Source of the DNA: Lachnospiraceae bacterium
GTDB lineage: Bacteria; Bacillota; Clostridia; Lachnospirales; Lachnospiraceae
Direction: 5' to 3'
Length of the DNA: 38,525 nt
Assembly: GCA_024693925.1 (NCBI GenBank)
Contig: JAILKH010000093.1
Span: forward strand, 1-38,525
A model generated the notes under the pieces. It was not told where the DNA came from, did not search any database, and worked only from the letters and a program-made list of their open reading frames with translations. The position numbers and the translations under genes are program-made. Within the stretch, counting starts at the first letter, position 1. Each line of letters starts with the position of its first letter. Shown here one piece after another: positions 24,401 through 38,525 of this stretch.

Positions 24401-25020
24401 GTATATCCATCAAGAACAATAACGCTTTTCTTAAGCTTCAGGGAGCCCGGTACGGCATCCGAAACTTTTTGGAGTATCTCTTCGGTGGTAATGTATTTTT
24501 CATTTATATATTTTAAAAACTCCCGATATAAAAGCTGTATATCCGTAAGCTTACTTTTCAGTATCTCTCTGTCACGGCTTTTATCTATCAATTCCGTTAA
24601 TTCTTTATCTCCGATACCATATTGCATAAACTCCGATATAACCGATTTCACTTCACTAATATATCCCAGTTTACTGTATACGTCCGAAAGTGCCGTCAAT
24701 TTATCCCTGTTTTTTCCCGCCATATAACGCAATATAAGATTCTTTCCTATATCATCTATTACGGAACCTTTTATATTCTTATAACCCACCTCTTCAAAAA
24801 CTCTGTGGGCAAGTCGGGTAAAACTTAATACATCTATATTAAGCATACCTTTGTTAGGATGCATTGATATCAGCTTTAACTGGGTACTGAGATTATATTG
24901 CTCCGGAACCAGGAATAAATACGTTAACTCCGGATGTTTTAAAGATTCATTTATGATATGTTTATATAACTTATAAGATTTTCCGCTTCCGCTGCCGCCA
25001 AGATATAATTGAAGTGCCAT
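21409..25020 (-). CDS. addB: ATP-dependent helicase/nuclease subunit B (AddB)
   Basis: The 1203-residue protein is the inactivated-helicase, Chi-recognising and 5'-strand nuclease subunit of AddAB. It has a Walker A-like GGSGSGKS at 8-15 and a C-terminal nuclease with IIDYKSG. The four iron-sulfur cluster cysteines are present: one in NYAKCAYAHF (about 800) and the CxxCx5C group at 1150, 1153 and 1159, which staples the nuclease domain. All catalytic and cluster residues expected of a working subunit are seen. The start has AGAGG eight bases upstream. It is the first gene after the promoter at 25113-25141, and the next gene, addA, follows after 15 nt. Confidence 0.97.
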   Translation of the reverse strand: MALQLYLGGSGSGKSYKLYKHIINESLKHPELTYLFLVPEQYNLSTQLKLISMHPNKGMLNIDVLSFTRLAHRVFEEVGYKNIKGSVIDDIGKNLILRYMAGKNRDKLTALSDVYSKLGYISEVKSVISEFMQYGIGDKELTELIDKSRDREILKSKLTDIQLLYREFLKYINEKYITTEEILQKVSDAVPGSLKLKKSVIVLDGYTGFTPVQAKLLAVLLQNTVDVYMTLLFDVNYGQNTSLNEQDLFYLSRKTLSMLERVCREKEIKKKPDEVILEEVPARFAYDINGKPIKEKDKRRDLIHLERNMFRAGEKAFEEEARSIHIFTGSTPEDEAVETAVRIEKLIREEGYHYKDIAVVTGDPDTYINVCKRAFSRYGIPFFADRTEPVLLNPMIELIRSLFDIIIEDYSYEAVFRYLRTGMTDYSRKTIDELENYVLRYGIKGRKKWKESFVLKPRYMEVSRLEELNGLRSDLSDKFELLYRDIQEGNPLAEENNISQNSKYDVRVISAALYKYLSRDRIYEKMLKLSEQFKETEDTVRAKEYEKLYEEICLLLDKMVSFLPDEEVTIKEYSELLDAGFAEIRTGVIPGTDDYVQIGDITRSRLRDIKALFFVGVNDGIIPSNLNSGGIISDMERDFLTEENEGEDKKIELAPTARMQAYTQRLYLYMLVTKPSEELYISYSGLSQDGKSINPSYFVKMIRRMFPKLKPEIVKDDILNRIYNMNTAYVKISAEMQDAVNRYDENQLREYFSLFKVFLKEEKYRNGLKKIMDAAFEKGDFSKKDEISKAVAAALYGTELTCSITRLENYAKCAYAHFLKYGLGIKERELFSFEASDMGSVFHDVLQMYAVILKDRGVSWLNIDPEDRNKVIDDAIERCIARDNYGAVYGTFRTKHTITRIRRIMLRTVDTLTLQLKKGRFEPYSFEFDFSSGNDYNSLNLKLDGEGKLRLIGRIDRMDICKDNEKVYVKIIDYKSGNKNFDLAAIYLGLDLQLVVYMNAACEYFGKISNERNKPEVIPAGMFYYHIDDPVIDCSSEDISGPFLSEAEDVFHKEIEKKIAAELRMSGLTNSDNEIYRLIDEEFSGASEVIPVGIKKNGELTGTSKVAGTEDFKIISEYVNKKISQMGSEILDGNIKAEAHKESPKKNSPCLYCEYSGICGYKGEGIVSDAGRELFEGDDPEDGENTRSLNEYILDMMRKAVEE

Positions 25021-25112
25021 TTAGTAAACCTCTTTATCAATCAATAATATGTATTATTATGATCCATTTATCTGTTCCTTACGGATCCTTTATATTAACA
25101 GCTTATAATAAA

Positions 25113-25141
25113 ATTATACGTTAACCCAATGCAGCATTCAA
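25113..25141 (-). promoter_or_regulatory. Vegetative promoter of the addBA transcription unit
   Basis: On the minus strand TTGAAT (25141-25136) is followed after exactly 17 bases by a perfect TATAAT (25118-25113). The leader to the addB ATG would be about 85 nt. The promoter lies about 35 nt past the glnA terminator. The remaining 25021-25112 is AT-rich leader with no motif I recognise. Confidence 0.75.
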
Positions 25142-25176
25142 GCTTGGAAATATACGTGACCGCAGAGATCGCCCAT

Positions 25177-25209
25177 AAAAAATGCGAAGATGAATTCTCA
25201 CCTTCGCAT
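25177..25209 (-). terminator. Rho-independent terminator of the glutamine synthetase gene
   Basis: On the minus strand ATGCGAAGGTGA (25209-25198) pairs with TCATCTTCGCAT (25193-25182) across a 4-nt loop, with one G-U pair, and is followed by a run of T residues (25182-25177). It lies 23 nt past the stop codon, separating glnA from addBA. Confidence 0.93.
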
Positions 25210-25231
25210 ATCCCAATATATTTCCAAAACA

Positions 25232-27325
25232 TCACACCGAAAAAAGCAAATCTCCATATGTAGGGAACGGCCAGTATTTGTCTGCCGTATTAATTTCCAT
25301 TTCATCACAATAAGCTCTTAATTTATCCATTGCGGGTATTATCCTGTCTTTATAATATTTGGCACATTCCAGATTATCTTCAATCGCGGAAACTTTAAGC
25401 AACAGCTTATCCAATTCATTAACCTGTACATACGCCTTATCTTCCAGTACCGATAACTTTTTAATAAGATCTTTTTCCATACCGTTTTTAAATAAAGTAT
25501 CCGTACCCATCTTAAGGCTTAGGGTTTTAGCCAGCTCCCGAATATATTCATTGACCGCGGGAAGGATTTGCCGCTTTGCCATTTCACTCATTGTCATAGC
25601 TTCAATGTTTAAAGTTTTACTGTATACATCAAGATTTATCTCATATCTTGACTTTATCTCAAGAGCAGTATATATATTATGCTTTTCAAAAAGATCAATA
25701 TTCTTTTTTTCAAGCATGGCAGGCATAGCATCCACTGTAGTTTCCAGATTTAAAAGTCCTCTCTTTTTTGCTTCTTCTTTCCACTCTTTTGAATAACCGT
25801 CACCATTAAAAATTATACGCTTATGCTTTTTAATAGTAGTCTTTATAAGTTCATTAAGTGTGTCCGTAAAATCATCTGCCTTCTCGAGTTCATCCGCAAA
25901 TTTTGACAGCTCCTCGGCAACGATGGTATTAAGTATCGTATTAGGACCCGAAACAGACATGGAAGAACCGCAGGATCTGAATTCAAATTTATTTCCCGTA
26001 AAAGCAAAGGGCGATGTTCTGTTTCTGTCTGTTGTATCCTTGGGAAATGAAGGAAGTACATGTACTCCGATCTCCATCTTGCCTGCACCCTGCTTATTAT
26101 ACGAAGTATCATTTTCAATACAATCAAGGATAGCTTCAAGATCATCCCCCAAAAAAATTGACATAATAGCCGGCGGAGCCTCCGAAGCTCCGAGACGATG
26201 ATCATTCCCCGCCGAAGCTATAGATACACGCATAAGATCCTGATACTCATCTATTCCTTTGATTATTGCTGTAAGAAACAGCAAAAACTGGGCATTCTCA
26301 TGAGGTGACTTTCCGGGCTCCAGCAAATTAACTCCTTCATCCGTAACCATTGACCAGTTATTATGCTTACCCGATCCATTAACTCCTGCAAAAGGCTTTT
26401 CATGCAACAGACATATCATATTATGGCGTTTGGCAACATTCTTCATAATCTCCATAGTGATCTGATTATGATCTATTGATATATTGGCAGTATCAAAAAT
26501 AGGAGCCATTTCATGCTGAGCCGGTGCAACTTCATTATGTTCGGTCTTAGACATAATACCAAGCTTCCATAATTCATCATTAAGTTCTTCCATATATGAC
26601 TGAACCCTGGGAAGGATGGCTCCAAAATAATGATCATCCATCTCCTGTCCCTTAGGTGCCATTGCACCATACAAAGTACGTCCGCAATACATAAGATCTT
26701 TTCTTTTATTATAAACATCCTTATCCACAAGGAAGTATTCCTGTTCCGGTCCCACCGTCGTGGTAACTCTTTTAACCGAAGAATTACCAAAAAGTCTTAA
26801 TATCCTAAGTGCCTGTTCATTTAAGGTTTCCATAGATCTTAAAAGAGGAGTTTTTTTATCAAGCGCTTCCCCTCCGTATGAACAAAACGCAGTCGGAATA
26901 CATAACACACCGTCCTTTACAAAAGCATAAGAGGTTGGATCCCAGGCAGTATATCCCCTTGCTTCAAAAGTGGCCCTAAGACCGCCGGAAGGAAAACTGG
27001 AAGCATCCGGCTCGCCCTTTATCAATTCCTTTCCGGAAAATTCCATAATCACACGTCCGTCATTCTGCGGAGAAATAAAACTATCATGCTTTTCTGCTGT
27101 TATACCCGTAAGCGGTTGAAACCAATGTGTATAATGGGTTGCACCTTTCTCAATAGCCCAATCCTTCATTGCTATTGCAACAGCATTAGCAATGGAAATA
27201 TCAAGATCTCTGCCATCCTCTATTGTCTTTTTCAAGGATTTATATATATCCTTTGGTAATTTATCACGCATTATCGCATCATTAAAAACCATACTACCGA
27301 ATATTTCAGGTACATTGCTTCTCAT
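25232..27325 (-). CDS. glnN: Type III glutamine synthetase (GlnN/GSIII)
   Basis: The 697-residue protein has the length and order of the GSIII family, much longer than GSI (about 450). Recognisable blocks are THWFQPLTG near residue 80, then [39 protein letters not shown]-type metal ligands ([14 protein letters not shown]), [14 protein letters not shown] and [10 protein letters not shown]. The C-terminal half is the GSIII-specific helical region with [14 protein letters not shown]. The enzyme makes glutamine from glutamate, ammonia and ATP in the cytosol as the main ammonia-assimilation step. The ATG has AAGGAG upstream. An inverted repeat lies just before that site (27344-27372) and may be regulatory. 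A terminator follows. GSIII as a principal glutamine synthetase is common in rumen and gut anaerobes. Confidence 0.97.
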
Positions 27326-27343
27326 TTTTTTCTCCTTATACCA

Positions 27344-27372
27344 CGTTCAGGGAATACGTTCCACCCTTAACG
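27344..27372 (-). promoter_or_regulatory. Inverted repeat in the glnN leader, possible regulatory hairpin
   Basis: On the minus strand CGTTAAGGG (27372-27364) is matched by CCCTGAACG (27352-27344), eight of nine positions pairing, around an 11-nt loop. It ends about 6 nt before the glnN ribosome binding site. It could be an RNA hairpin or an operator. I do not recognise it as a known nitrogen-control element, and there is no T-run after it. Confidence 0.35.
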
Positions 27373-27427
27373 CCTTCTACAATTTCTTAATCATCTTTTT
27401 TCCAAAGCCTTCAGCCGGATGTATCTT

Positions 27428-28381
27428 CTATTCAAGCCTTATATATTCCGTAAGTCCGCTTTCCCCATACATTTGCCGGATCACTTCGTTATATACTTTC
27501 TGATCTTCATATACACCCCCAAAATGTACGTTATCGGAAAACATTTCGGGTGGATAATAATGTACACTTTCAAGATAATCCGGAAATATATGTGATAATC
27601 CGGTCTCTTCAAAAAGCAGGGGAGCTTTAACCTCCACTATCTCATGATATCCTTCCATATCCGGAACCGGGGAGGGTAAAAAATGAAATCTTACGTCATT
27701 TTCATCACACAAAGTTTTGATCTTCTTCAAATACGAAACATATACCGATGTTTCATTTGAATGCTCTATATCATTTTTACGATATTTTTTTATATAATTC
27801 AAATACAGTTTCCGGTTTAGTCCGCTGTTATCAATACGGCGAACAATTCCCTCCCTCATAAAGAACTCACCGTAAACATATTTTAATTCCTCCACGGTGT
27901 TATCATCAAGATACTTCAGATTTCCCGTCTCCACCAAAGGCATGACCACATATTGATACCCATATGAAATATCAAAATTTCTACTGACATCACCTATAGG
28001 GACCATAACAAGATAAATATCAGTTGCTTCGGGATGTGCCTCCAAAAATTTACAGGCCAATACATACTGACCGCACATCGTAAAAGGTGCTATTGCAGGT
28101 GCCACAGATCCTTCACCATTAATATTTGCAATATCCATCAACATCGGTCTGCATACACTGTCCCCCAGTAGTAATACCTTCGCTCCATCCTCGGTACTTA
28201 CCTTTTCTATAAGAGGTATTATCCAATCCGGTCCATCCATATGAGTAAGATACGTATCACTCACAGTATATCTTGCTATCGGCATTGAATAATCTTCATT
28301 ATATGATAACACAACGACCCCTGAAAGCAATATTAATATTATCAAAACTATTACAATAAACTTTCCTTTAAACTTATCCAT
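27428..28381 (-). CDS. SGNH-hydrolase-like exported protein, partner of the MBOAT acyltransferase
   Basis: The 317-residue protein has an N-terminal signal anchor (about 7-26) and an extracytoplasmic domain. VLLLGDSVCRP at 69-79 gives the GDS nucleophile Ser75, and SDNVHFG near the C-terminus gives Asp283 and His286 in the D-x-x-H spacing, completing an SGNH triad. The family resembles AlgJ/AlgX and DltD-type proteins, which complete transfer of acyl groups brought across the membrane by an MBOAT protein. It lies 84 nt after the MBOAT gene. The likely role is O-acylation of an exported polymer. The alternative DltD assignment is less likely because no dltA or dltC is visible. It is the last gene before glnN; no terminator was found in the 102-base gap. 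Confidence 0.72.
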   Translation of the reverse strand: MDKFKGKFIVIVLIILILLSGVVVLSYNEDYSMPIARYTVSDTYLTHMDGPDWIIPLIEKVSTEDGAKVLLLGDSVCRPMLMDIANINGEGSVAPAIAPFTMCGQYVLACKFLEAHPEATDIYLVMVPIGDVSRNFDISYGYQYVVMPLVETGNLKYLDDNTVEELKYVYGEFFMREGIVRRIDNSGLNRKLYLNYIKKYRKNDIEHSNETSVYVSYLKKIKTLCDENDVRFHFLPSPVPDMEGYHEIVEVKAPLLFEETGLSHIFPDYLESVHYYPPEMFSDNVHFGGVYEDQKVYNEVIRQMYGESGLTEYIRLE

Positions 28382-28465
28382 TTATTACGCTTTCCATCAC
28401 CCTGCAATACTTTCTCAAATTATGATCTTCTTAATTTTGTACCTCTCCGTCCTTTATTGAAATAC

Positions 28466-29980
28466 CTAAAATTTAAAGTAAATAAAATCCGCTGACCCCT
28501 GCCCCATATTCTGTACTGCTATAAGTACTATAAAAAGGACAATAAAGACATAACATAACCATCTGAAGATCAAACCCTGCTTATCCAGAAGCTTTATAAT
28601 ACTTATACCGTTTTCATGCACCACATCCACAGCAAAAAGGATAATAACATATGCCAATATACTCCTTACGCATAATTCCGGTAGACCAAGTCCATATATC
28701 CAATCTCCCATTACCGTATATAACCTGAAATCGGTAAATATTTTTTTTGTCATTTTCAAAGCCATTCCCAATCCTTCGGCTCTGAAAAAAAGCCAGGCGT
28801 AATCAACCATAATAAAAGTTACTACCATATTAAACAAGTGACGGCTGAAGGTTCTTTTATTCCCTTCCCGGTTTACTCCTGCCTCATTCTTTATTATTCC
28901 CTGTTCCCGCAATACAGAAACAAAACCTTCCTTTATTCTTCCGATTCCGGCTTCAATGATATGATATAAACCATGCAATCCTCCCCAGGCTATATAATTC
29001 CAGGCACTTCCATGCCACAGTCCGCTCAATAAAAATGTAAGCATATTATTAATATATTTTCTAACCCTTCCCTTACGGTTTCCGCCCAGAGGAATATATA
29101 CATAATCTTTAAACCAGGTCGACATACTGATATGCCACCTGCTCCAAAAATCCTTTATACCGACTGCAAGATAAGGCTGCTTGAAATTCTCTTTAACATT
29201 CAGCCCAAATAACTTTGCGGCCCCTATTGAAATATGTGAATATCCCGAAAAATCAGCATATATCTGAATACCGTAGCATATTGTTGCATATACTATAGCC
29301 GCCCCCGAATAAGATGTATAATCAGAATAAACCGCATCAACTATACCGCCGATCCTGTCAGCAACCGCCATTTTTTCAAAATATCCCCATAACATCAGTA
29401 AAATACCATCCCTAAAGGTTCTTTCATTAAAAACCGTTGGGGTATTTATCTGTTTTAAAAGATTATCCGCCCGATCAATGGGACCTGCCGTTATCTGCAG
29501 AAAAAATGAAACAAATAAGGAATACTTTATATAATTTTTTTCTGCCGGAATCTTTTTATGATAAACATCCGTTACATAACTTACAGATTTAAATGTATAA
29601 AAAGAGATACCCACCGGCACTATCAATGAAAATGGGGATTTATTCACAGACATTCCAAAATATCCGGATAATCTGTTTATATTACCCGCAAAAAAATCAA
29701 GATATTTAAAAACTCCGAGGGCACCGATACATAATAACACGGTAACTGCCAGTATCGCCTTCTTTAACCCATCACCTTCCGCGCTTTCGATAAATCTTCC
29801 CCCGAAATATGAACAAGTAATGACTCCGAAAAGCACAGCCACACATCTTAAATCAAAGCAGGCATAAAAAAATATACTTGCCACCAGAAGCCAGGCATTT
29901 CGAAATTTGACCGGAAACAGGTAATAAAACAAAATTGTAACCGGAAAGAAAATTATAAAATCAAAAGAATTAAATAACAT
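28466..29980 (-). CDS. MBOAT-family membrane O-acyltransferase (AlgI-like)
   Basis: The 504-residue polytopic membrane protein starts MLFNSFDFIIFFP, the standard opening of AlgI-like MBOAT proteins. It has PVGISFYTFKSVSYV at 122-136, RWHISMSTWFKDYVYIPLGGNR at 281-302 (His283) and SGLWHGSAWNYIAWG at 319-333. His323 in WHG is the invariant catalytic His of MBOAT enzymes. These proteins pass acyl groups, commonly acetyl, from the cytoplasm to polysaccharide outside. The ATG is preceded by AGGAAA. It is followed by an SGNH-like exported partner, the same pairing as AlgI with AlgJ/AlgX. The acceptor polymer is unknown and may be the glycan built by the surrounding genes. Confidence 0.93.
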   Translation of the reverse strand: MLFNSFDFIIFFPVTILFYYLFPVKFRNAWLLVASIFFYACFDLRCVAVLFGVITCSYFGGRFIESAEGDGLKKAILAVTVLLCIGALGVFKYLDFFAGNINRLSGYFGMSVNKSPFSLIVPVGISFYTFKSVSYVTDVYHKKIPAEKNYIKYSLFVSFFLQITAGPIDRADNLLKQINTPTVFNERTFRDGILLMLWGYFEKMAVADRIGGIVDAVYSDYTSYSGAAIVYATICYGIQIYADFSGYSHISIGAAKLFGLNVKENFKQPYLAVGIKDFWSRWHISMSTWFKDYVYIPLGGNRKGRVRKYINNMLTFLLSGLWHGSAWNYIAWGGLHGLYHIIEAGIGRIKEGFVSVLREQGIIKNEAGVNREGNKRTFSRHLFNMVVTFIMVDYAWLFFRAEGLGMALKMTKKIFTDFRLYTVMGDWIYGLGLPELCVRSILAYVIILFAVDVVHENGISIIKLLDKQGLIFRWLCYVFIVLFIVLIAVQNMGQGSADFIYFKF

Positions 29981-30013
29981 ACTTTTTCCTAAAAAAAATT
30001 AATCCATCACCAT

Positions 30014-30661
30014 TTAAGCATTTATACAATCAAATATTTCCCGAGGCGTATGTGCACATCCAATATAAGGAAAAGATATAATGTCCTTCTCGGTTTTAAA
30101 ACCAAAACCATATGTTACGGCTATAAACGGAATATCTGCTGTTTTTGCACCTTTAGCATCATTATCGGTATCACCTACAAGCACACATTCATCTTTTTTT
30201 GCTCCCATCTCATCCACACACATTAATATAATATCTTCTTTTTTCAGAATATTATTATTATCGGCACCATGCATAGGATTACAATACTTATCAAACCCGA
30301 AATGTTTTAAAAGCTTAAGAGCATAATCCTCCCTTTTATAGGTTGCCACTGCCATTTTTATCCCGTTATCCAGACATTTTTCGCAAAGCCCGTAAATCCC
30401 GCCATAAGGTTCTGCCTTTAACAATGCTTTTTCTTTATAATAATCCCGAAAAACCCCTGCGGCCCTTTGCGCCTCTTCCTTAGAACAGCCAAAGTGCTTT
30501 ATAAATGAAGTCTGGACCGGCGGCCCTACAAAAGACAACATATCTTCATACGACAATACCGTGTAGCCCAATTTCTTTATAGAATATTCCACACTTTCAA
30601 GAATCCCTTCCTTAGTATCCAAAAGAGTTCCGTCCAGATCAAAGATAACATTTTTTATCAC
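30014..30661 (-). CDS. HAD-superfamily phosphatase, phosphoglycolate-phosphatase-like
   Basis: The 215-residue cytosolic protein has the HAD motifs in order: motif I FDLDGTLLDT (7-16) with the nucleophile and acid/base Asp pair, a helical cap (about 20-85), motif II VATYKRE around 106-112, and motif IV VGDTDNDAKGA near 162-172. The cap type and size are those of Gph/PGMB-like enzymes. It removes phosphate from a small phosphorylated metabolite, and the substrate cannot be read from sequence. The start is a GTG with GAGGT upstream, 14 nt past the stop of the TPP-enzyme gene, so it is in the same operon. It may dephosphorylate an intermediate of the aldolase/TPP pathway, or be a general phosphatase. 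Confidence 0.85.
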   Translation of the reverse strand: MIKNVIFDLDGTLLDTKEGILESVEYSIKKLGYTVLSYEDMLSFVGPPVQTSFIKHFGCSKEEAQRAAGVFRDYYKEKALLKAEPYGGIYGLCEKCLDNGIKMAVATYKREDYALKLLKHFGFDKYCNPMHGADNNNILKKEDIILMCVDEMGAKKDECVLVGDTDNDAKGAKTADIPFIAVTYGFGFKTEKDIISFPYIGCAHTPREIFDCINA

Positions 30662-30675
30662 TGTATTTACCTCAT

Positions 30676-32466
30676 CTAAAACCTGATACTTTCATATTCC
30701 TCCCGGCAAAGGAAGGGTGCCATATCATCTAAAGAAGGAGACACTATTTTACCGTCCGGTAAAACCTTTGAGGAAGATTTGGGTTCAAAATTCTGCTCGG
30801 GATCTACCACCACCTCACACACACACGGTCCCGTATACTCCAGTACCCGGGTTATCACCTCATCCGCATCATTTTCATTATCAAATCTAAAATACTTTAT
30901 CGAAAACGCTTCGGATAATTTCCCAAAATCGGGAAATCCGACACCGCTGTCTTTATCAATTCCGATAAATGGCGGTTTAAACAGATTCCGCTGTGTTTGT
31001 CTTATGGATAAATATCCGTTATTATTCAGAATGAACAGCTTGATATTCAGATTATTATAAGCAACGGTTGCCAATTCCTGTATATTCATCATTACACTTC
31101 CGTCACCATCTATACATATCGTTCTTTTTTTGTTATCGGAAACCGCAACACCCAGCGCCGCCGGAAAGCCATATCCCATAGCTGCACATCCGGAATTCGT
31201 AAACATTCTCTGTCCCTGTTTTATCTTAGCTGCCTGAAAGGTTATAACACAGGCCGCACCGTTTCCGCATATTATCCTGTCATTCTTATCCAGTTTAGAA
31301 AACAGTTTATCTATAAATACATAGGGATTTATTATTCTGCTTCCGTAATGCTCATTTTTAACCGCCGGAAATCTTTCCACCAGCTCTTTACACCATTTCA
31401 GCCATTCCGAATGTTTTAATACAGGCTTGTAATCACAGGCCAGCATTTTATCCAAAAAATCATTAACATCGGCATTTATAGCCAGGTCCGCATGTATCGT
31501 AGGTTTATAAAGCTCCCGCGGATCCAGATCAACTATGACTTTAAAAGCATTTTTTGCAAAATCATGGTGTGTATACCCTATCATACGAATATTCATCCTG
31601 CATCCGAGACTTATTAAAAGATCACAGTTTTGAACCGCAAAATTTCCGGAGCGTACTCCGACCGTCCCGGGCATACCGACATAATACGGATTATCATATG
31701 CTACAGTATCATTGGCATTCCAGGCGGTCACCACAGGTATCTTATATTTTTCCAGAAATTCCAATAATCTGCCATCGGCGTTTGCAAGATTTATACCGGT
31801 GCCGGCAAGTACCAGCGGTGCTTTGGAATTCCTGATCTTATTAAGTAATATTTCGACCTGCCCTTCGCTAACCTTAGGGGGTTCCCATCCATACTCCTGA
31901 TCCTTTACAAAATGGATAAGGGAGTCCGTATCTATGACCGCCCCCTGAACATCCATCGGAATATCGATCCATACAGGGCCACCCCTGCCGTTTTTTGACA
32001 AAAACAGAGCTTTTTCCAGATGATAGGATATTTCGGAAGGATTTGTAACCATAACCGCGTATTTGGTCATATTTTTCACAGAATCAACAATATTAAACTC
32101 CTGGTCTCCCAGCTGTCTTAAATTTAATTCCCCGGCCGCCAGGATTGTGGTCTCTCTCTTAACCTGTCCCGAGATCACAAACATGGGAATCGAATCCAGC
32201 CAGCCTCCCATAACACCTGTAATGGCGTTGGTCCCCCCGGGTCCGCTTGTAACACATACTGCAGCCAGTTCTCCGGTCATCCTGGCATATCCTTCCGCCG
32301 CAATTGCACAAGCCTGCTCATGATGATTAAAAATACAACGCATACCTTCCTGATGACCTATTGCATCATCCAAATGCATGGCTCCTCCTCCGGTCACCAT
32401 AAAACAATCCTTAATTCCGTTATCCACCAAAAACTGAGATAAATACTGCGCTACCTTGATCTTCAT
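30676..32466 (-). CDS. Thiamine-diphosphate-dependent enzyme, acetolactate-synthase-like
   Basis: The 596-residue protein has the three-domain architecture of the POX/ALS family. The N-terminal pyrimidine-binding domain has NHHEQACAIAAEGYAR with catalytic Glu50, and TSGPGGTNAITG. The central domain contains PLVLAGTGIN. The C-terminal PP-binding domain has the GDGSVMMNIQEL...NNNGY pattern that binds Mg-thiamine diphosphate. Family members decarboxylate a 2-oxo acid and release, or ligate, the resulting two-carbon unit. No second subunit (ilvN) is nearby, and the neighbours are an aldolase and a sugar-kinase fusion rather than branched-chain amino acid genes, so a biosynthetic acetolactate synthase role is unlikely. 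It is 50 nt after the aldolase gene. I infer a partner step acting on the product or substrate of that aldolase. Confidence 0.85.
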   Translation of the reverse strand: MKIKVAQYLSQFLVDNGIKDCFMVTGGGAMHLDDAIGHQEGMRCIFNHHEQACAIAAEGYARMTGELAAVCVTSGPGGTNAITGVMGGWLDSIPMFVISGQVKRETTILAAGELNLRQLGDQEFNIVDSVKNMTKYAVMVTNPSEISYHLEKALFLSKNGRGGPVWIDIPMDVQGAVIDTDSLIHFVKDQEYGWEPPKVSEGQVEILLNKIRNSKAPLVLAGTGINLANADGRLLEFLEKYKIPVVTAWNANDTVAYDNPYYVGMPGTVGVRSGNFAVQNCDLLISLGCRMNIRMIGYTHHDFAKNAFKVIVDLDPRELYKPTIHADLAINADVNDFLDKMLACDYKPVLKHSEWLKWCKELVERFPAVKNEHYGSRIINPYVFIDKLFSKLDKNDRIICGNGAACVITFQAAKIKQGQRMFTNSGCAAMGYGFPAALGVAVSDNKKRTICIDGDGSVMMNIQELATVAYNNLNIKLFILNNNGYLSIRQTQRNLFKPPFIGIDKDSGVGFPDFGKLSEAFSIKYFRFDNENDADEVITRVLEYTGPCVCEVVVDPEQNFEPKSSSKVLPDGKIVSPSLDDMAPFLCREEYESIRF

Positions 32467-32516
32467 TTTTCCATCCCCAATATATACAGAATATGATTTA
32501 TGCCGACAATATATAT

Positions 32517-34115
32517 TTATACGCTGTAAAATGTCGGTGTTATAAATTTAATATCGATCTTTTCCCTGATACTCCCGAAAAATTCCGAGGCATATTCATT
32601 TAAAGAGTCCGCTTTATCGTTCAGAAAATCATATGCCTTATCCGTATCAAGATAATTTACATTTTCGGGTGTATATCCGTCGAATCCCGCAAGTACCACA
32701 TGTTTACAACCGCATTTTAAAAGTAATCTTATAAGCATACACATGGAATTATCCGGAAACTCCGCCTTTTCATCAATCACACTTGTATAATTAATTACAT
32801 AGTCAAAATCCCGTTCATTTTTGGTAAGATTGGAGGAGGCGATAAGACATATATCCTCATTCTCTTTTTCATGCAACTTTGTTACGGATTGTAAAAATCT
32901 TGTAGTATTGGTTATAAACATATAATCCGGATGAAAATTTTTGGGTATATAATTAATGGATATAACCACAGGTTTATTTTCTTTGATATAATCCGCTATA
33001 CGGTCTTTATGATCATCTACACTTATCCCCGGCCCTATCATCAATATGTTTTTCCCGGACAAAGCCCCGGTAAGTTCCGAAATATCAAAACTGTCATCAC
33101 ATTCATTTTTTTGATAATCCATATAAAGCCTTTCCGCAAGCTTCATATTTTTTTCAAGCTTCTGATCCTCGGGAATGCGCTGGAGTATCTCGTTTATGGC
33201 TGTAATCGACAGTGTTCTTTTATTCATAAGATAAGAAACATAATCAGGATGTACTTTATTTGAAGCGGCTATATAATAAAATAACTGATATCCCCATGGC
33301 GAACGCTTCTGAAAATCCATTACACTACTGGTTATAGCTTCCTGCATTTCCGTGATCACATAGCTTTTGCCATAATGCTCATTCATATACATCGCTACCA
33401 GCTCAAGCGGCGCATTACCGGCACTCTTTCCCATACCGTAAAGCGTACCATCCACCAGTATATCCCTGTCCGTTTCATAATCCAGGGCAGTGACCGCATT
33501 CACATATCCCAACTGAAAATTATTATGTGCATGAAATCCCAATACTATATCCTTATCCATATTCATATCTATGATCGACATAATATGCTTAAGCTCACCG
33601 GGATTTAATAATCCGTACGTATCCACCATGGAAAGAGCATATGGACGGATATCGTTTGCAATGGAAATAACCTCCAGCAATTCTTCGTCCGAATACGAGG
33701 TCACCGAAACAAGTTGTGAAAAGACCCTGTATCCCAGTTCTTTGATCCGCTTACAATACTCCATTGCCGGTTTCATATTTTTCTTTTTAAATATTACTCT
33801 TATCCCGTCAATAAAGGATTCCTCACAAGGGGCGATATTACTTATATCACAGGTTCCGTAATCGATCATTCCCACAACCATTGTATGTTTTTTATCCAGC
33901 TTACCGTAAATCTTTGATATAGACTCAGTATCGGGCATTATACTTCTGTTTATATCAAATACACGTCTGTCATCAATAAATCCTATTTCGACCACATCCA
34001 CCCCGGAGGCCACAACTCTTTCAAAAACATTAACAAGATTATCATGTCCGAAGTCCCAATCATTTATATATCCGCCGTCTCTCAACGTACAATCCAGTAA
34101 ATACCGATTATTCAT
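32517..34115 (-). CDS. HMGL-type (DRE-TIM) aldolase with an extra C-terminal Rossmann-like domain
   Basis: The 532-residue protein has an N-terminal part (1-310) that is a DRE-TIM aldolase/lyase barrel. LLDCTLRDGGY (6-16) carries the catalytic Arg and metal-binding Asp, VDTYGLLNPGEL is at 164-175, GFHAHNN (193-199) supplies metal ligands His195 and His197, and GMGKSAGNAPLE is at 227-238. This resembles 4-hydroxy-2-oxovalerate aldolase more than isopropylmalate synthase. The part from about 352 to 532 begins GKNILMIGPGISVDDH, contains HVVLAGFDGYTPENVNY, and ends in a short IKFITPTF strand. This order resembles DUF115 or GT42-type sialyltransferase-like Rossmann domains (tentative). The ATG has GGGGG close upstream. 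The next gene encodes a TPP enzyme. The substrate is unknown. Confidence 0.82.
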   Translation of the reverse strand: MNNRYLLDCTLRDGGYINDWDFGHDNLVNVFERVVASGVDVVEIGFIDDRRVFDINRSIMPDTESISKIYGKLDKKHTMVVGMIDYGTCDISNIAPCEESFIDGIRVIFKKKNMKPAMEYCKRIKELGYRVFSQLVSVTSYSDEELLEVISIANDIRPYALSMVDTYGLLNPGELKHIMSIIDMNMDKDIVLGFHAHNNFQLGYVNAVTALDYETDRDILVDGTLYGMGKSAGNAPLELVAMYMNEHYGKSYVITEMQEAITSSVMDFQKRSPWGYQLFYYIAASNKVHPDYVSYLMNKRTLSITAINEILQRIPEDQKLEKNMKLAERLYMDYQKNECDDSFDISELTGALSGKNILMIGPGISVDDHKDRIADYIKENKPVVISINYIPKNFHPDYMFITNTTRFLQSVTKLHEKENEDICLIASSNLTKNERDFDYVINYTSVIDEKAEFPDNSMCMLIRLLLKCGCKHVVLAGFDGYTPENVNYLDTDKAYDFLNDKADSLNEYASEFFGSIREKIDIKFITPTFYSV

Positions 34116-34174
34116 TTTTACCCCCGCGATTCAAGTCTCGCTCAAAACATCCCTAACCCTGTGGTTTTTATAAA

Positions 34175-36115
34175 CTATCTTCCGTAATGAGTTAATGTAT
34201 ATCTGTATGCTTCGGGAAGTCCCAGATCATATGACCTTCCTTCCGGCAAAAATGCATACATCCCGTATTTGGCTCTTACTCTGTCAAGAGCCTCCGTAAG
34301 ACCTATCTCCGCATCCGATCCCTCATTGTCCGCGGTGATCACCATGGCCGATAATTCATCATATACCTCCGGCGTCAGAACATACTGGCCAAAGGTAGCA
34401 TAGTATTTTTTTTGTTTTTTTGAATTGATAACTCCAAGATACTCCTCCGCATAGTCGTCCGTAGGTTTTTCGACCATACTCTCCACCTTCATCAAAGATT
34501 CATTGTCATCATTCCATTGACCGTACAGAATTCCGTAATGTACCACCCTCTCAAGCTCAACTTCTTCAATGCTTACAAGAGTTTTTCCGCATTCCATATA
34601 TGCATCTATTACCTGTCTTGAACAGCTTATACCACCGTAGGTTTCATAAATAAAATCACCTAATAACAGAAGTACACTTGATCCTTCACTAAAGGATCTT
34701 GTAAGATATACCGCATGCCCAAAACCGCGTCTTTCGTTCTGGTACACAAAAGTAATATGCTGTCTCATTTCCACTATTTTGTCCGCATATTCCGCCTTAT
34801 CATTCGGAAGTCTGTTCTTAAGTTCCTCACTGACCGGAGCAAACAGCTTATCATATTCCTCCTGTTCATCCTCTCCTATGATAAGACATATCTCTTCTAT
34901 ACCTGCATCCAGCAATTCCTCAATCATGATAAACAAAGCAGGCTTTAACATTCCGTCCTTGTCCACAACCGGCGCAAATCCTTTTTTCATTGCTTTGGTT
35001 GCGGGAAAAATCCTTGTTCCGAAACCGGCAAGGGGAATCACAGCCTTTCTCACCGACTGCCCCGGCTTAAGCGTAAGCGTAAAGGAAGACATACCCTTTG
35101 TATCAAGATAATCCTGCAGCTTCTTTACACACTCCTCATTCTTACATAAGAACTGGACAGAGCCGTCTCCCTGGGACCCGACTCCCTTCGCCCCGCAGAT
35201 ATACTTTCTTACCTCCTCATCCTTCATAACGGAATGAAGAATCGGAGCAACCAGTTCCGAACAGGCCGGCATAACTTTGTTATCAAAATTAGCCTGCCAT
35301 TCATCCATCAGCTTACCAAGGCCCGTAATGTCTCCCTCCTCAAGAAACTTTACCGCCCTTTCATTGATCCTCCTATTATCTTCACCCAGTGCTTCCTGTA
35401 CCTTCCTTTGTTTTTCATCTTCCGCAAACGGAAAACACCTGTTAAGATCCGCCAGTATCTTTATAGTATCTTTTGACGCATTAAGATTTGCCACAACCCA
35501 TCTGAAAGTCGTTCCTACACTCAGCTCTTTGGAATCAATTTCCACACCGTCAAAATTCATAAGTACCGGTTTAACTCCGTATGCACAAGCCTGATCCAGC
35601 CTTCCGCATCTTGAAGGAGTTCTCTGCTCACCCCTGAAAGCAGCCTGCATTTCTCCCTTTACATTCATTCTCAGATTATACATTTGATTAAAAGCCCTTG
35701 CTACCAGCACACATATTGCCGCAGAGGATGACAAACCGCTCTTTATCGGAAGATCCATCCTTGTAACATTTATCTTTAAACCATCCACTGTATAATTATC
35801 ATTAATATATGAGGCGACTCCGGCAACATACGAAAAGAACCCTCCCTGCTTAGCAACATCCAGCAGTACTTCCGTATCCATAGGACTCTCAAGATATTCA
35901 TCTTTATATATGGGAAGCTTACTTTCAACTATGAACTTTTCATTCCGTTCCACCGTTGCATAAATTCCCTGCTCAATACCCGTGACAACCGCCTGACCCG
36001 TAACTATATCGGAATTCACGGTTCTGTACATGCCTGCCCAATCGGAATGTTCGCCAAATAAACACAGTCTTCCGGGAACAAATAAATTGATCTTTTTTTT
36101 ATTTAAATCTTTCAT
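34175..36115 (-). CDS. Fused GHMP sugar kinase and GalU-like nucleotidyltransferase
   Basis: The 646-residue protein has two enzymes in one chain. Residues about 8-350 are a GHMP kinase of galactokinase type: GRLCLFGEHSDW (15-26), KSGLSSSAA (125-133) for ATP phosphate binding, RLDQA (172-176) with the likely catalytic Asp, and GVGSQGDGSV (311-320). Residues about 357-646 are a GalU-like nucleotidyltransferase: IPLAGFGTRIFPATKA (360-375), RRGFGHAV, LLLLGDFIYE and VEKP. Together they would convert a free sugar to its 1-phosphate and then to an NDP sugar, probably UDP by resemblance to GalU. The start is the ATG at 36113-36115 with AAGGAAG just upstream. The frame extends to a TTG at 36145, which is less likely. 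It lies 38 nt after the methyltransferase gene and 59 nt before the aldolase gene. Confidence 0.85.
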   Translation of the reverse strand: MKDLNKKKINLFVPGRLCLFGEHSDWAGMYRTVNSDIVTGQAVVTGIEQGIYATVERNEKFIVESKLPIYKDEYLESPMDTEVLLDVAKQGGFFSYVAGVASYINDNYTVDGLKINVTRMDLPIKSGLSSSAAICVLVARAFNQMYNLRMNVKGEMQAAFRGEQRTPSRCGRLDQACAYGVKPVLMNFDGVEIDSKELSVGTTFRWVVANLNASKDTIKILADLNRCFPFAEDEKQRKVQEALGEDNRRINERAVKFLEEGDITGLGKLMDEWQANFDNKVMPACSELVAPILHSVMKDEEVRKYICGAKGVGSQGDGSVQFLCKNEECVKKLQDYLDTKGMSSFTLTLKPGQSVRKAVIPLAGFGTRIFPATKAMKKGFAPVVDKDGMLKPALFIMIEELLDAGIEEICLIIGEDEQEEYDKLFAPVSEELKNRLPNDKAEYADKIVEMRQHITFVYQNERRGFGHAVYLTRSFSEGSSVLLLLGDFIYETYGGISCSRQVIDAYMECGKTLVSIEEVELERVVHYGILYGQWNDDNESLMKVESMVEKPTDDYAEEYLGVINSKKQKKYYATFGQYVLTPEVYDELSAMVITADNEGSDAEIGLTEALDRVRAKYGMYAFLPEGRSYDLGLPEAYRYTLTHYGR

Positions 36116-36153
36116 TCTTTCTTCCTTCCAATATTTTTCGAACAATAAACAGG

Positions 36154-37047
36154 TTATTTATCCTCTCTCTTTTCCTTCCTGGTAACAATAAATATTCTCT
36201 GACTTTCCGCCGTCGGTTCATCACGCGTATCCGAATCCCTGATAAGTAACGGTTTAAGCTCTGCCTTCTTAAGAAAATCCAGCATTTCTTCCAGAGTATA
36301 CCCCCGTTGATAATGAGTTTCCACATATCTTTTAAAGATATCCGGCTCATTTCTTTCAATAAAGATACTCAGATCATATTCATTAATATGAGTTTCATCA
36401 TCATAGAAATTTTCCCATATAAATGCACAGTCTTCCCGATTCTCGGCAATAGTGGAATCCCCTATAACCTGTTCATATTTATAAAGGGTATTAAAATCAA
36501 ACATAAACAAGCCGCCGGGATACAGAAAGTTTTCTATCAGCTTAAATGTTCTTATTACCTCATCGTCTTTCAGCAGATAATTAATTGAATCACACACGGA
36601 ATATATTGTTCCTACCGTCGAATACAGATCCAGGTCCCTCATATCCTGGTTTATGTACAATATCTCGTACCCTTTACCGTCTCTCTTATCCTGTGCGACC
36701 TCCAGCATACTCTCGGAACAATCAATACCGATCATATCATATCCTCTTTTATACATCAGATTGGTAAGCGTACCGGTTCCGCATCCTAAGTCCACAACAA
36801 GATTCTTTTCGGAATTTAAAATTTCATCCTCTGTCAGCTCTTTCTCTTTTACTATTTCTACATCATCATATTTTAAATTACCGAAAAATCCGGAACCCTC
36901 GCTCCTGTCAACCTTTTCGGATACTCCGTACTTCTCTATCATTGATACAATAACCTCACACCATTCCGTATAAGGTATATTATCCATTAATTCATCATAT
37001 ACATAAGCAAGTGCATCATACGCCTGATCGGTTCCTTCGTATTTCAT
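36154..37047 (-). CDS. Class I SAM-dependent methyltransferase (YqeM-like)
   Basis: The 297-residue cytosolic protein opens YDALAYVYDELMDNIPYTEW, an N-terminal signature I associate with YqeM-like methyltransferases of Firmicutes. SAM motif I is LVVDLGCGTGTL (83-94), the next acidic position is IGIDCSESML, and a later motif is GGLFMFDFNTL. An acidic insert (about residues 45-82) lies between the opening helix and motif I and is longer than I would expect. The start is the ATG at 37045-37047; an AAGGAG lies 11 nt upstream. The frame extends to a TTG at 37095. It is first after the promoter at 37138-37165. It could be part of the sugar pathway or a housekeeping enzyme; the YqeM resemblance favours the latter. 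Confidence 0.85.
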   Translation of the reverse strand: MKYEGTDQAYDALAYVYDELMDNIPYTEWCEVIVSMIEKYGVSEKVDRSEGSGFFGNLKYDDVEIVKEKELTEDEILNSEKNLVVDLGCGTGTLTNLMYKRGYDMIGIDCSESMLEVAQDKRDGKGYEILYINQDMRDLDLYSTVGTIYSVCDSINYLLKDDEVIRTFKLIENFLYPGGLFMFDFNTLYKYEQVIGDSTIAENREDCAFIWENFYDDETHINEYDLSIFIERNEPDIFKRYVETHYQRGYTLEEMLDFLKKAELKPLLIRDSDTRDEPTAESQRIFIVTRKEKREDK

Positions 37048-37137
37048 ATATTCCAGATCTCCTTTGTTGAACCTTACCTTTAACAAGATATCCAATCATC
37101 CTGTTCCGTTTATTAAAGCCTCTGACTTTACATCCAT

Positions 37138-37165
37138 ATTATAACCCGAAGACATATTCCTTCAA
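37138..37165 (-). promoter_or_regulatory. Predicted promoter of the methyltransferase-to-SGNH operon
   Basis: On the minus strand TTGAAG (37165-37160) is followed after 16 bases by a perfect TATAAT (37143-37138). The -35 starts immediately after the stop codon of the upstream transporter gene. The predicted leader to the methyltransferase ATG is about 85 nt. Confidence 0.6.
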
Positions 37166-37693
37166 TTAAAAGATCGCTCCGAATATTCCTGCCGATAACA
37201 GTCCCATTATAATACCCGCCAGCACAACACCAAGCATTACCGCTGTTACGCTTTCCTTAAATTTCATATCAAGAATAGATGCCGCCAGTGTACCTGTCCA
37301 TGCTCCCGTACCGGGAAGGGGTATACCTACGAATAAAAGCAGAGCTACAAACAAGCCATTCCCGGCCTTTGCCTGAAGTTTCTCTCCTCCCTTATGTCCT
37401 TTATCCAGACAAAAAGTAAAAAACCTGCCTATTATCGGTTTATCTTTTCCCCATTCCAAAACTTTTCTTGCAAAAAAGAAAATAACGGGAACCGGAAGCA
37501 TGTTACCTATCGCTATAACTATATACCCTATAAGCATATTGAATTCAGGATTCAGTTCATTAAACCACGCTGCTATGGGTATTGCTCCTCTCAATTCTAT
37601 TAACGGTATCATCGAAACAACAAAACATCCGATATACTGAGTTAATGTATTGGCCGTAAACGCCTGTGCTATGCTCTGTGCAAATGAACTCAT
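37166..37693 (-). CDS. Small multidrug-export family membrane protein (COG2426)
   Basis: The 175-residue membrane protein has about four to five helices, with SMIPLIELRGAIPIA (27-41) near the start. This ELRGAIP segment is the hallmark of the COG2426/Sm_multidrug_ex family. A second conserved stretch, VGIPLPGTGAWTGTLAA, follows after the FFARK loop. Despite the family name, the transported substrate is not established; the fold is related to DedA-type proteins with re-entrant loops. The ATG overlaps the hisC stop codon by 4 nt, so the two are translationally coupled. There is no obvious link to histidine synthesis. Confidence 0.92.
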   Translation of the reverse strand: MSSFAQSIAQAFTANTLTQYIGCFVVSMIPLIELRGAIPIAAWFNELNPEFNMLIGYIVIAIGNMLPVPVIFFFARKVLEWGKDKPIIGRFFTFCLDKGHKGGEKLQAKAGNGLFVALLLFVGIPLPGTGAWTGTLAASILDMKFKESVTAVMLGVVLAGIIMGLLSAGIFGAIF

Positions 37694-38525
37694 CCCACTA
37701 TCTCCTTTAATACTTTTATAAATTCCTTCATATCCTCTTTTGTACCTATCGATATACGAAGATAATCTGAAATCCTTTCTTTATTCCAGTGTCTCACATA
37801 AATATTTTTTTCTCTTAAACCCTTAAATATTTCCTCTGCGCTTATCCTCTTATGTCTGGCAAAGATAAAATTGGCTTTGGAATCCTCAAATTCAAAATCA
37901 AGTTCCTTAAGCTTTTCTTTTGTCCATTCTCTTGTGCTTATTACCCTGTTAACCGTTTCATTAAAATAGTCTGTATCCAGAACGGATTCCGTCGCAAGCT
38001 CTATCGAAGGATAATTCATTGTGTAGGAATTAAAAGCAAATTTTACATCCTTAAGATAACTTATCAGCTTTTCACTTCCGAAAGCCATGCCAATCCTTAA
38101 TCCCGCAAGCGCATGAGATTTTGACATCGTCTGTACTATTAAAAGATTCTCATATTTCTTAATAAGCGGCAAACAGCTTTCTCCTCCGAAATCAATATAT
38201 GCCTCATCTACGATCACCACACAATCAGGATTTGTACTCACTATTTCCTCAAACATGGCCGGATCTTCATATACACCCGTCGGAGCATTGGGATTCGGAA
38301 TTATGATCCCACCGCAGCCCTTGTTCAAATAATCATTTTTATCAATCTTGAAATTCTCCTTCAAGGGCATTGTTTCAAACGGCACCTTATGCACATTCGC
38401 CCACACATCATAAAACGAATAGGTAATGTCCGGAAACAATACCGGCTTATCGGAATTAAAAAATGTCATAAAAGACATTGAAAGAACATCATCCGAACCC
38501 ACACCCACAAATACATTATCAAAAT
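37690..38525 (-). CDS. hisC: Histidinol-phosphate aminotransferase (5' end beyond the window)
   Basis: The frame is open to the high-coordinate edge and continues past the internal GTG at 38508 with FDNVFVGVGSDDVL, which is colinear with HisC, so roughly 75 N-terminal residues are missing. It has the fold-type I PLP landmarks: GVGSDDVL (phosphate-binding region), IIPNPNAPTGV, VIVDEAYIDF, and TMSKSHALAGLRIG with the Schiff-base Lys. The C-terminal RISIGTKEDM block contains the substrate-carboxylate Arg. The enzyme transaminates imidazole acetol phosphate with glutamate in histidine synthesis. Other his genes are not visible, and related aminotransferases for tyrosine/phenylalanine or cobalamin side chains (CobD) look similar, so the symbol is likely rather than certain. 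Confidence 0.85.
   Translation of the reverse strand, partial: FDNVFVGVGSDDVLSMSFMTFFNSDKPVLFPDITYSFYDVWANVHKVPFETMPLKENFKIDKNDYLNKGCGGIIIPNPNAPTGVYEDPAMFEEIVSTNPDCVVIVDEAYIDFGGESCLPLIKKYENLLIVQTMSKSHALAGLRIGMAFGSEKLISYLKDVKFAFNSYTMNYPSIELATESVLDTDYFNETVNRVISTREWTKEKLKELDFEFEDSKANFIFARHKRISAEEIFKGLREKNIYVRHWNKERISDYLRISIGTKEDMKEFIKVLKEIVG

Follow-up and report, generated by a model that had tools for sequence, protein, structure and literature searches.

What do seven consecutive genes of a Lachnospiraceae bacterium build, and do they build it together? The genes lie in the window, the whole stretch of 38,525 nucleotides that was analysed (contig JAILKH010000093.1 of assembly GCA_024693925.1, here C127 of a 3.05 Mb genome in 201 contigs), and an earlier note on this DNA had suggested that they form one operon for making and attaching an unusual activated sugar or polyol, with some doubt about the methyltransferase. 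We find that the seven genes are real but that they probably do not form one pathway. The core consists of an aldolase, a YerE-like thiamine diphosphate (TPP) enzyme and an HAD phosphatase, and it is likely to make a C-branched sugar whose branch is long and hydroxylated. We are less sure which aldehyde is used and what is acylated. Gene content, family resemblance and recurrent linkage are observed directly, and each substrate and product named below is read from sequence and gene context. The open reading frame (ORF) list of the window gives seven ORFs at 27428-37095, with these features:

27428..28381, minus strand: SGNH-like putative MBOAT partner, 317 residues, named from its position after the MBOAT gene; no family match.
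28466..29980, minus strand: MBOAT O-acyltransferase, 504 residues (PF03062, E 1.2e-26).
30014..30661, minus strand: HAD phosphatase, 215 residues (PF13419).
30676..32466, minus strand: YerE-like TPP enzyme, 596 residues, a predicted carboligase (8rph, JanthE, E 5.7e-124).
32517..34115, minus strand: two-domain aldolase, 532 residues (PF00682), with an N-terminal domain of the class II pyruvate aldolase type (DRE-TIM barrel) and a C-terminal MptE/TPK-like domain.
32517..33107, minus strand: C-terminal domain of this aldolase, residues 337-532, with a fold like archaeal HPPK (MptE type) and SteA, a weak match.
34175..36145 (probable ATG 36115), minus strand: GHMP sugar kinase fused to a GalU-like nucleotidyltransferase (PF00288 and PF00483).
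36154..37095 (ATG 37047), minus strand: class I methyltransferase, 313 residues (PF13649).

The intergenic gaps are 84, 33, 14, 50, 59 and 8 nucleotides, the last becoming 38 with ATG 36115 of the fusion; the single strand and short gaps described earlier are thus borne out. Pfam and NCBIfam also agree with the families first named (in Pfam: MBOAT, HAD_2, TPP_enzyme N/M/C, HMGL-like, GHMP_kinases_N with NTP_transferase, and Methyltransf_25), except that the SGNH-like protein matched neither database at the thresholds used.

The TPP enzyme contains the Pfam N, M and C domains in the three-domain layout of the decarboxylase superfamily, and it is nearer to YerE-like enzymes than to acetolactate synthase. 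In a search of PDB sequences, its best solved relative is 8rph (E 5.7e-124), followed by 5ahk (E 1.1e-75), which we take to be PpYerE. The entry 8rph is cited in a paper on the engineering of JanthE, a YerE-like enzyme that couples 2-oxo acids to ketones and yields tertiary alcohols (excerpt of PMC12188165); JanthE is also named in an excerpt of PMC12655727. Five JanthE active-site residues are given in the abstract of PMC12188165 (V121, Y268, P293, Y297 and K567, these numbers being chain numbers minus one, with which all five residue types fit), of which Y297 and K567 are kept as Y298 and K563. In 86 aligned TPP sequences longer than 450 residues, catalytic Glu50 is present in 86, Asp455 of the GDG cofactor motif in 85 and its G in 86. 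The enzyme scores under the cut-off of all 25 NCBIfam models displayed (54 matched), the top match being acetolactate synthase TIGR00118 at 353 bits for a cut-off of 538.

In the aldolase, the Pfam HMGL-like match spans residues 5-247. Its closest solved relatives, by sequence and by fold, are 3dxi (putative aldolase BVU_2661) and 4-hydroxy-2-oxovalerate aldolases. The TIM barrel, the Asp/His/His metal site and the RDG motif of class II pyruvate aldolases are all found, and R12, D13, H195 and H197 are invariant in 42 aligned sequences (alignment A2 omits L081, a short aldolase). The protein shares its fold with DmpG/BphI, and also the positions of what we take to be the Asp/His/His metal residues of DmpG. 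It differs by its extra C-terminal domain, by a Tyr in place of the presumed active-site His and by an operon in which the Pfam and ORF lists show no acylating aldehyde dehydrogenase as partner.

The extra domain, already listed in the earlier note, is confirmed as C-terminal, separate (residues 337-532) and conserved. Its AlphaFold model has a predicted local distance difference test (pLDDT) of 91.1, and its fold is nearest, though weakly, to archaeal HPPK and SteA, the Foldseek matches including 8sd5 (archaeal HPPK, E 4.3e-5, template modelling (TM) score 0.53, root-mean-square deviation 6.4) and 9hmz (E 1.8e-4, TM 0.48). Since the motifs GPG, N, N..R, TSN and GFDGY are conserved, this domain may be catalytically active. 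The same genome also encodes a short aldolase of 337 residues without the C-terminal domain (L027, G000:C43, 9923-10936), downstream of genes that by eye resemble chorismate mutase/prephenate dehydratase, dehydroquinase and prephenate dehydrogenase.

Class II pyruvate aldolases yield 4-hydroxy-2-oxo acids. YerE-like enzymes attach decarboxylated 2-oxo acids to a cytidine diphosphate (CDP)-4-keto-3,6-dideoxy sugar, and one of them, ErwE, favours 4-hydroxy-2-oxo acids as donor (excerpt of PMC12247030). The donor type of ErwE is the product type of pyruvate aldolases.

This pairing recurs in relatives. Two sets of loci were compared: a family set of 42 (40 from 39 of the 80 genomes, among 299 of the family, with an aldolase match at 1e-30, plus the window and a second copy on contig C66 of the same genome), and a wider set made of the best 80 of at least 574 confirmed aldolase candidates from a scan of genome contigs, whose counts lean to close relatives. 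Six loci of the wider set share their aldolase with six of the family set. Genes were called as six-frame ORFs of at least 90 residues and labelled by BLAST with identity thresholds of our own choice; a neighbour is a gene within 8 genes of the aldolase, and NCBIfam labels rest on one representative per cluster. In the family set, 28 of the 42 loci have a YerE-like TPP gene as neighbour, together with an HAD gene (19), at least one of RfbF/G/H (16), an SDR (18), a glycosyltransferase (18) or a GtrA-like gene, a possible flippase (5). The TPP gene is present in 63 of the best 80 loci, with HAD in 36, AroB-like in 7, SDR in 47, glycosyltransferase in 38, any of RfbF/G/H in 40 and a cytidine triphosphate (CTP) transferase in none. 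Removal of the loci shared with the family set leaves 58 with TPP (five removed), and the corresponding counts are HAD 31, AroB-like 7, SDR 42, glycosyltransferase 34 and any RfbF/G/H 36. The 17 loci of this set without a TPP gene contain a CTP transferase in 9 cases, HAD in 11 and any RfbF/G/H in 5. Cluster representatives of RfbH (NF011936, 717.6 bits), RfbF (TIGR02623, 380.4) and RfbG (TIGR02622, 456.6) are above cut-off; the glycosyltransferase is PgfS/ArnC-like and the SDR of the epimerase/dehydratase type, both below theirs. The best 80 loci span Clostridia, Selenomonas, Treponema, Bacteroidales, Fibrobacter, Paenibacillus, Gastranaerophilales and one archaeal metagenome-assembled genome (MAG). 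Hence the carbon-skeleton module that had been proposed is conserved, and in relatives it is linked to sugar-nucleotide genes. The order past the aldolase is TPP-HAD in the window, L058, L069 and L080, and HAD-TPP in L065, L066 and L068, so the module has been rearranged.

The link to the acceptor sugar also holds at the genome level. All 24 genomes whose aldolase shares 46% or more identity with that of the window encode RfbG, versus 10 of the 39 whose full-length aldolase is distant and 91 of the 275 outside the 24 (Fisher 8e-10 and 2e-11, respectively, values that ignore shared ancestry). The 275 include 14 genomes with short aldolases only and three intermediates in neither clade (G211, G283 and G235, 37-40% identity), two of which have RfbG. 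In the genome under study, contig C80 (30.8 of 100.8 kb examined) carries RfbF, RfbH and RfbG and, about 10 kb on in the same direction, a glycosyltransferase and an SDR. RfbF and RfbG exceed their NCBIfam cut-offs, RfbH and the SDR are assigned by BLAST only and the glycosyltransferase matches its model. No aldolase of this family was found on C80, and no TPP gene in the 30.8 kb. In G070, trio and Rfb genes lie about 115 kb apart on one contig. Activation of the product is better explained by RfbF, the glucose-1-phosphate cytidylyltransferase, than by the fusion.

A route can be proposed from these parts. First, the aldolase would join pyruvate to a phosphorylated aldehyde, giving the phosphate of a 4-hydroxy-2-oxo acid (a 3-deoxy-2-ulosonate). 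A product of this ulosonate type is supported because relatives without TPP carry CTP transferases, some of them with KdsC-like genes, and because some TPP loci encode AroB-like proteins. Second, the HAD phosphatase would strip the phosphate from the aldol product. Third, the TPP enzyme would decarboxylate the 2-oxo acid and couple the resulting acyl chain to CDP-4-keto-3,6-dideoxyglucose at its keto carbon, this acceptor presumably being made by RfbF, RfbG and RfbH from C80. Fourth, the SDR encoded downstream of these Rfb genes may reduce the new ketone. Fifth, the PgfS/ArnC-like glycosyltransferase would transfer the sugar to a lipid carrier, after which extracellular acylation of the sugar or its polymer by MBOAT and the SGNH-like protein is probable.

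The system thus resembles a long-branch variant of YerE/ErwE chemistry in modular form. The erwiniose system of Pectobacterium atrosepticum uses a YerE-like TPP enzyme (ErwE), a 4-hydroxy-2-oxo acid donor and the CDP-4-keto-3,6-dideoxyglucose acceptor (excerpt of PMC12247030), and RfbF, RfbG and an RfbH homologue are found in the genome under study. It differs in that the TPP enzyme is paired here with a two-domain aldolase and a phosphatase, though the erwiniose cluster may have both as well. In caryophyllose of Mycobacterium marinum (MMAR_2332), a hydroxylated C6 chain likewise sits at C4 of a 3,6-dideoxyhexose (excerpts of PMC5706390 and PMC7821131), and a YerE-like enzyme is involved (excerpt of PMC12247030). 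The caryophyllose chain ends in a methyl, whereas the HAD-type set should leave a hydroxylated end. YerE, in yersiniose A synthesis, shares the TPP enzyme class and the CDP-3,6-dideoxy-4-keto-glucose acceptor but takes pyruvate directly (excerpt of PMC12247030). Genome G042, without aldolase match at 1e-30, resembles that case; its locus L104 (G042:C13, 5892-13915) is an rfbF-rfbG-rfbH-TPP-SDR-glycosyltransferase run without aldolase that looks short-branch and yersiniose-like. In Kdo/Kdn synthesis (a synthase using phosphoenolpyruvate (PEP), a KdsC-type phosphatase and a KdsB-type CTP transferase), the likeness lies with the distant-clade aldolases, which sit with KdsB-/PseF-like and sometimes KdsC-like or HAD genes. 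The enzyme forming the C-C bond is here a DRE-TIM aldolase, so pyruvate would be expected rather than PEP. The statement that no characterised pathway with this exact set is known was too strong, since a TPP enzyme of this kind already operates in the synthesis of yersiniose A and of erwiniose (excerpt of PMC12247030). Our literature search found no description of the modular form; it did not reach the primary work on ErwE, JanthE and the YerE survey, so the aldolase partner may be in print.

Several observations weigh against the branched-sugar route. No protein of the set has a known activity, and their roles are read from sequence. The aldolase scores 75 bits versus 286 for 4-hydroxy-2-oxovalerate aldolase (TIGR03217), far below the cut-off, and its Tyr16 stands at the position of the His in what we take to be the RDGMH motif of DmpG. 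In the TPP enzyme of the window, D121, V269 and R294 stand in place of three JanthE active-site residues (V121, Y268 and P293). RfbF/G/H are not beside the trio there, the acceptor genes being on C80 and the branch genes on C127. The second cassette of the same genome, on C66 (aldolase, AroB-like, TPP and SDR), could share the same acceptor. In G179, one of the 24 genomes, the close aldolase (L062) has KdsB-like and HAD genes as neighbours but no TPP gene, and 8 of the 17 wider-set loci without TPP also lack a CTP transferase. Neither HAD nor KdsC-like nor AroB-like genes occur within 8 genes in 7 of the 28 family and 20 of the 63 wider-set TPP loci, some on short contigs, so a phosphorylated aldehyde is not proven. 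Finally, the proposed acceptor synthesis would also require a reductase of the RfbI type for RfbH.

Among the alternatives, one pathway of all seven genes, with the fusion activating the sugar built by the aldolase and the TPP enzyme, would account for the shared strand and the short gaps. It would also fit locus L139, where a fusion of 60% identity is encoded about 5.5 kb away from an aldolase-HAD-TPP cluster, but in the opposite orientation. The distribution of the fusion makes it unlikely. The full-length fusion occurs in 4 of 150 genomes of the family, that of the window included, and the other three show no aldolase gene in the 10-20 kb around it and no aldolase match at 1e-30 genome-wide. 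Among 391 genomes of the class, 4 have a match at 1e-60, and only that of the window's own genome is full length. The fusion is near an aldolase in two of the 122 loci (the window and L139), so that in the neighbourhood check once suggested, the aldolase recurs with the TPP enzyme and not with the kinase-nucleotidyltransferase. It is absent from L105, a 7.5 kb contig of a Lachnospiraceae MAG that keeps the other five genes and whose ORF list contains neither fusion nor methyltransferase. The fusion halves miss equivalog cut-offs (GalK 69 versus 443 and 61 versus 226.65 bits; GalU 158 versus 326.8). In two of the three other class-level genomes, distant homologues occur as a separate kinase followed by a nucleotidyltransferase beside a GH127 beta-L-arabinofuranosidase-type gene. 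As these homologues sit with GH127 and the fusion is not kept with the trio, it is probably a separate salvage enzyme for a free sugar, perhaps L-arabinose. With RfbF, an activating enzyme would already be at hand. The single seven-gene pathway, and with it activation by the fusion, was therefore rejected. Stand-alone kinase relatives next to a nucleotidyltransferase and GH127 are seen in L189 (6454-10303) and L190 (4879-8638), an arrangement that suggests salvage of a released sugar.

The methyltransferase, doubted from the start, has 17 NCBIfam matches, all under cut-off, and a homologue adjoins the aldolase in the window alone among the 122 loci; it is probably an unrelated neighbour. The predicted promoter is present as a site at 37165-37138, but 25000-38525 holds 49 such sites for a mean of 47.7 in shuffles, a chance level at which it was dropped as operon evidence. 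Upstream, a small export protein (37166-37693) and a HisC-like protein (37690-38508) continue the same-strand run nearly to the contig end, so the operon boundary is not fixed.

The second alternative holds that a small hydroxy acid or acyloin is the product of the aldolase and the TPP enzyme and that MBOAT/SGNH attach it as an acyl group, with no branched sugar. MBOAT and SGNH genes do follow the trio directly, both in the window and in L105, where the end of a glycosyltransferase gene is followed by aldolase, TPP, HAD, MBOAT and SGNH genes (76, 79, 69, 58 and 65% identical to those of the window, respectively). This second occurrence upholds the proposed tie of the pair to the module, and because of it the product of the branched-sugar route may be acylated. 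The MBOAT protein does not reach the DltB cut-off (TIGR04091, 157 versus 375 bits), and the 317-residue protein is presumably SGNH from its GDS and late D..H motifs and its place after MBOAT. MBOAT homologues are near the aldolase in 2 of the 42 family and 3 of the 80 wider-set loci, and SGNH homologues in 2 of 122; RfbF/G/H, the SDR and the glycosyltransferase are far commoner. No operon protein matched an acyl-activating family, and we regard the acyl-group explanation as quite improbable. A further MBOAT homologue, of about 30% identity, stands at the start of the examined stretch of C80.

Catabolism or branched-chain amino acid synthesis, named earlier as what would overturn a biosynthetic role, draws on the top NCBIfam match to acetolactate synthase and was rejected as highly improbable, given a score far under cut-off, JanthE as nearest solved relative, frequent sugar-nucleotide and glycosyltransferase neighbours and an operon lacking an acylating aldehyde dehydrogenase.

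Beyond the trio, the aldolase can tentatively be read as a so-far unassigned route from pyruvate and an aldehyde phosphate to 3-deoxy-2-ulosonates with three outlets, a possible extension that we hold well below the core reading. In the first, phosphatase and TPP carboligase would lead to branched CDP-sugars. In the second, an AroB-like "phospholyase" (TIGR04425) would eliminate phosphate without lasting cyclisation and an SDR would reduce the resulting ketone, giving 3,7-dideoxy-heptulosonate for the TPP carboligase and a caryophyllose-type chain. In the third, a CTP transferase would give cytidine monophosphate (CMP)-ulosonates. Caryophyllose is 3,6-dideoxy-4-C-(D-altro-1,3,4,5-tetrahydroxyhexyl)-D-xylo-hexopyranose (excerpt of PMC5706390); its chain would correspond to 3,7-dideoxy-2-heptulosonate minus CO2, reachable from 3-deoxyheptulosonate 7-phosphate by AroB-type elimination and ketone reduction.

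All eight AroB-like proteins (C66 and 7 of the best 80 loci; 8 of 91 TPP loci) pass TIGR04425 with 405-469 bits for a cut-off of 400, and our literature search returned no match for this family name. At 1e-100 the family is rare, with matches in 2 of 391 genomes of the class and 1 of 398 of the phylum, both counts including the genome of the window. In the other class-level match, G330 (L193, G330:C111, 6069-10398), TPP, HpcH/HpaI-type aldolase (weak, E 2.4e-10), SDR and AroB-like genes stand in a row. Its TPP protein is 57% identical to its closest family member, and a different aldolase class appears to occupy the slot of the DRE-TIM aldolase. A small SDR is present in 8 of 9 AroB-like loci including G330, and none was seen in L165. 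At position 294, the TPP enzymes of HAD loci all have Arg (51 of 51), as do those of loci with neither gene (27 of 27); of the 8 encoded in AroB-like loci, 5 have Tyr. As a sign of coupling to the AroB-like outlet this is weak evidence, the five Tyr sequences (L026, L130, L165, L166 and L110) being least like the window and perhaps one subgroup. A mutual exclusion of HAD and AroB-like genes (0 of 63 together, hypergeometric 0.0016) was dropped, AroB-like L144 and L165 carrying a KdsC-like gene. The cassette on C66 (L026, G000:C66, 1049-6363) has flanks that look like glycosyltransferases by eye.

In the family set of 42, a CTP transferase of the KdsB-like or PseF-like kind accompanies all 14 loci that lack TPP and 2 of the 28 that have it (L067 and L083), so strict exclusion of TPP and CTP-transferase genes was rejected. 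Thirteen of the 14 belong to the distant clade and one (L062) to the close clade; 4 have a KdsC-like small HAD and 3 a window-type HAD. The KdsC-like cluster member tested, from L083, passes TIGR01670 (152.9 versus 106.95 bits). An aldolase beside a KdsB-/PseF-like CTP transferase, often with HAD or KdsC-like genes, is seen in L085-L097, L173, L174, L175, L178, L179, L180, L183 and L184, a possible alternative route to CMP-ulosonic acids that also occurs in Paenibacillus (L183).

Structurally known long-chain C-branched sugars are few and come from Gram-negative bacteria, spirochaetes and mycobacteria (excerpt of PMC12247030). With the TPP gene in 63 of the best 80 loci and in several phyla, such sugars may be widespread among gut and rumen microbes. 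The set indicates which genes to search for and makes the function of TIGR04425 testable; if the three-outlet reading is true, this family, now "putative", would gain a function. Isolates carrying the set include Clostridium aminophilum DSM 10710 (L141, HAD type) and Selenomonas artemidis DSM 19719 (L130, AroB-like type), and Robinsoniella peoriensis (L122) represents the CTP-transferase type. Overall, these genes are likely to make a carbon side chain and attach it to a surface sugar, a chemistry known from a few bacterial glycans.

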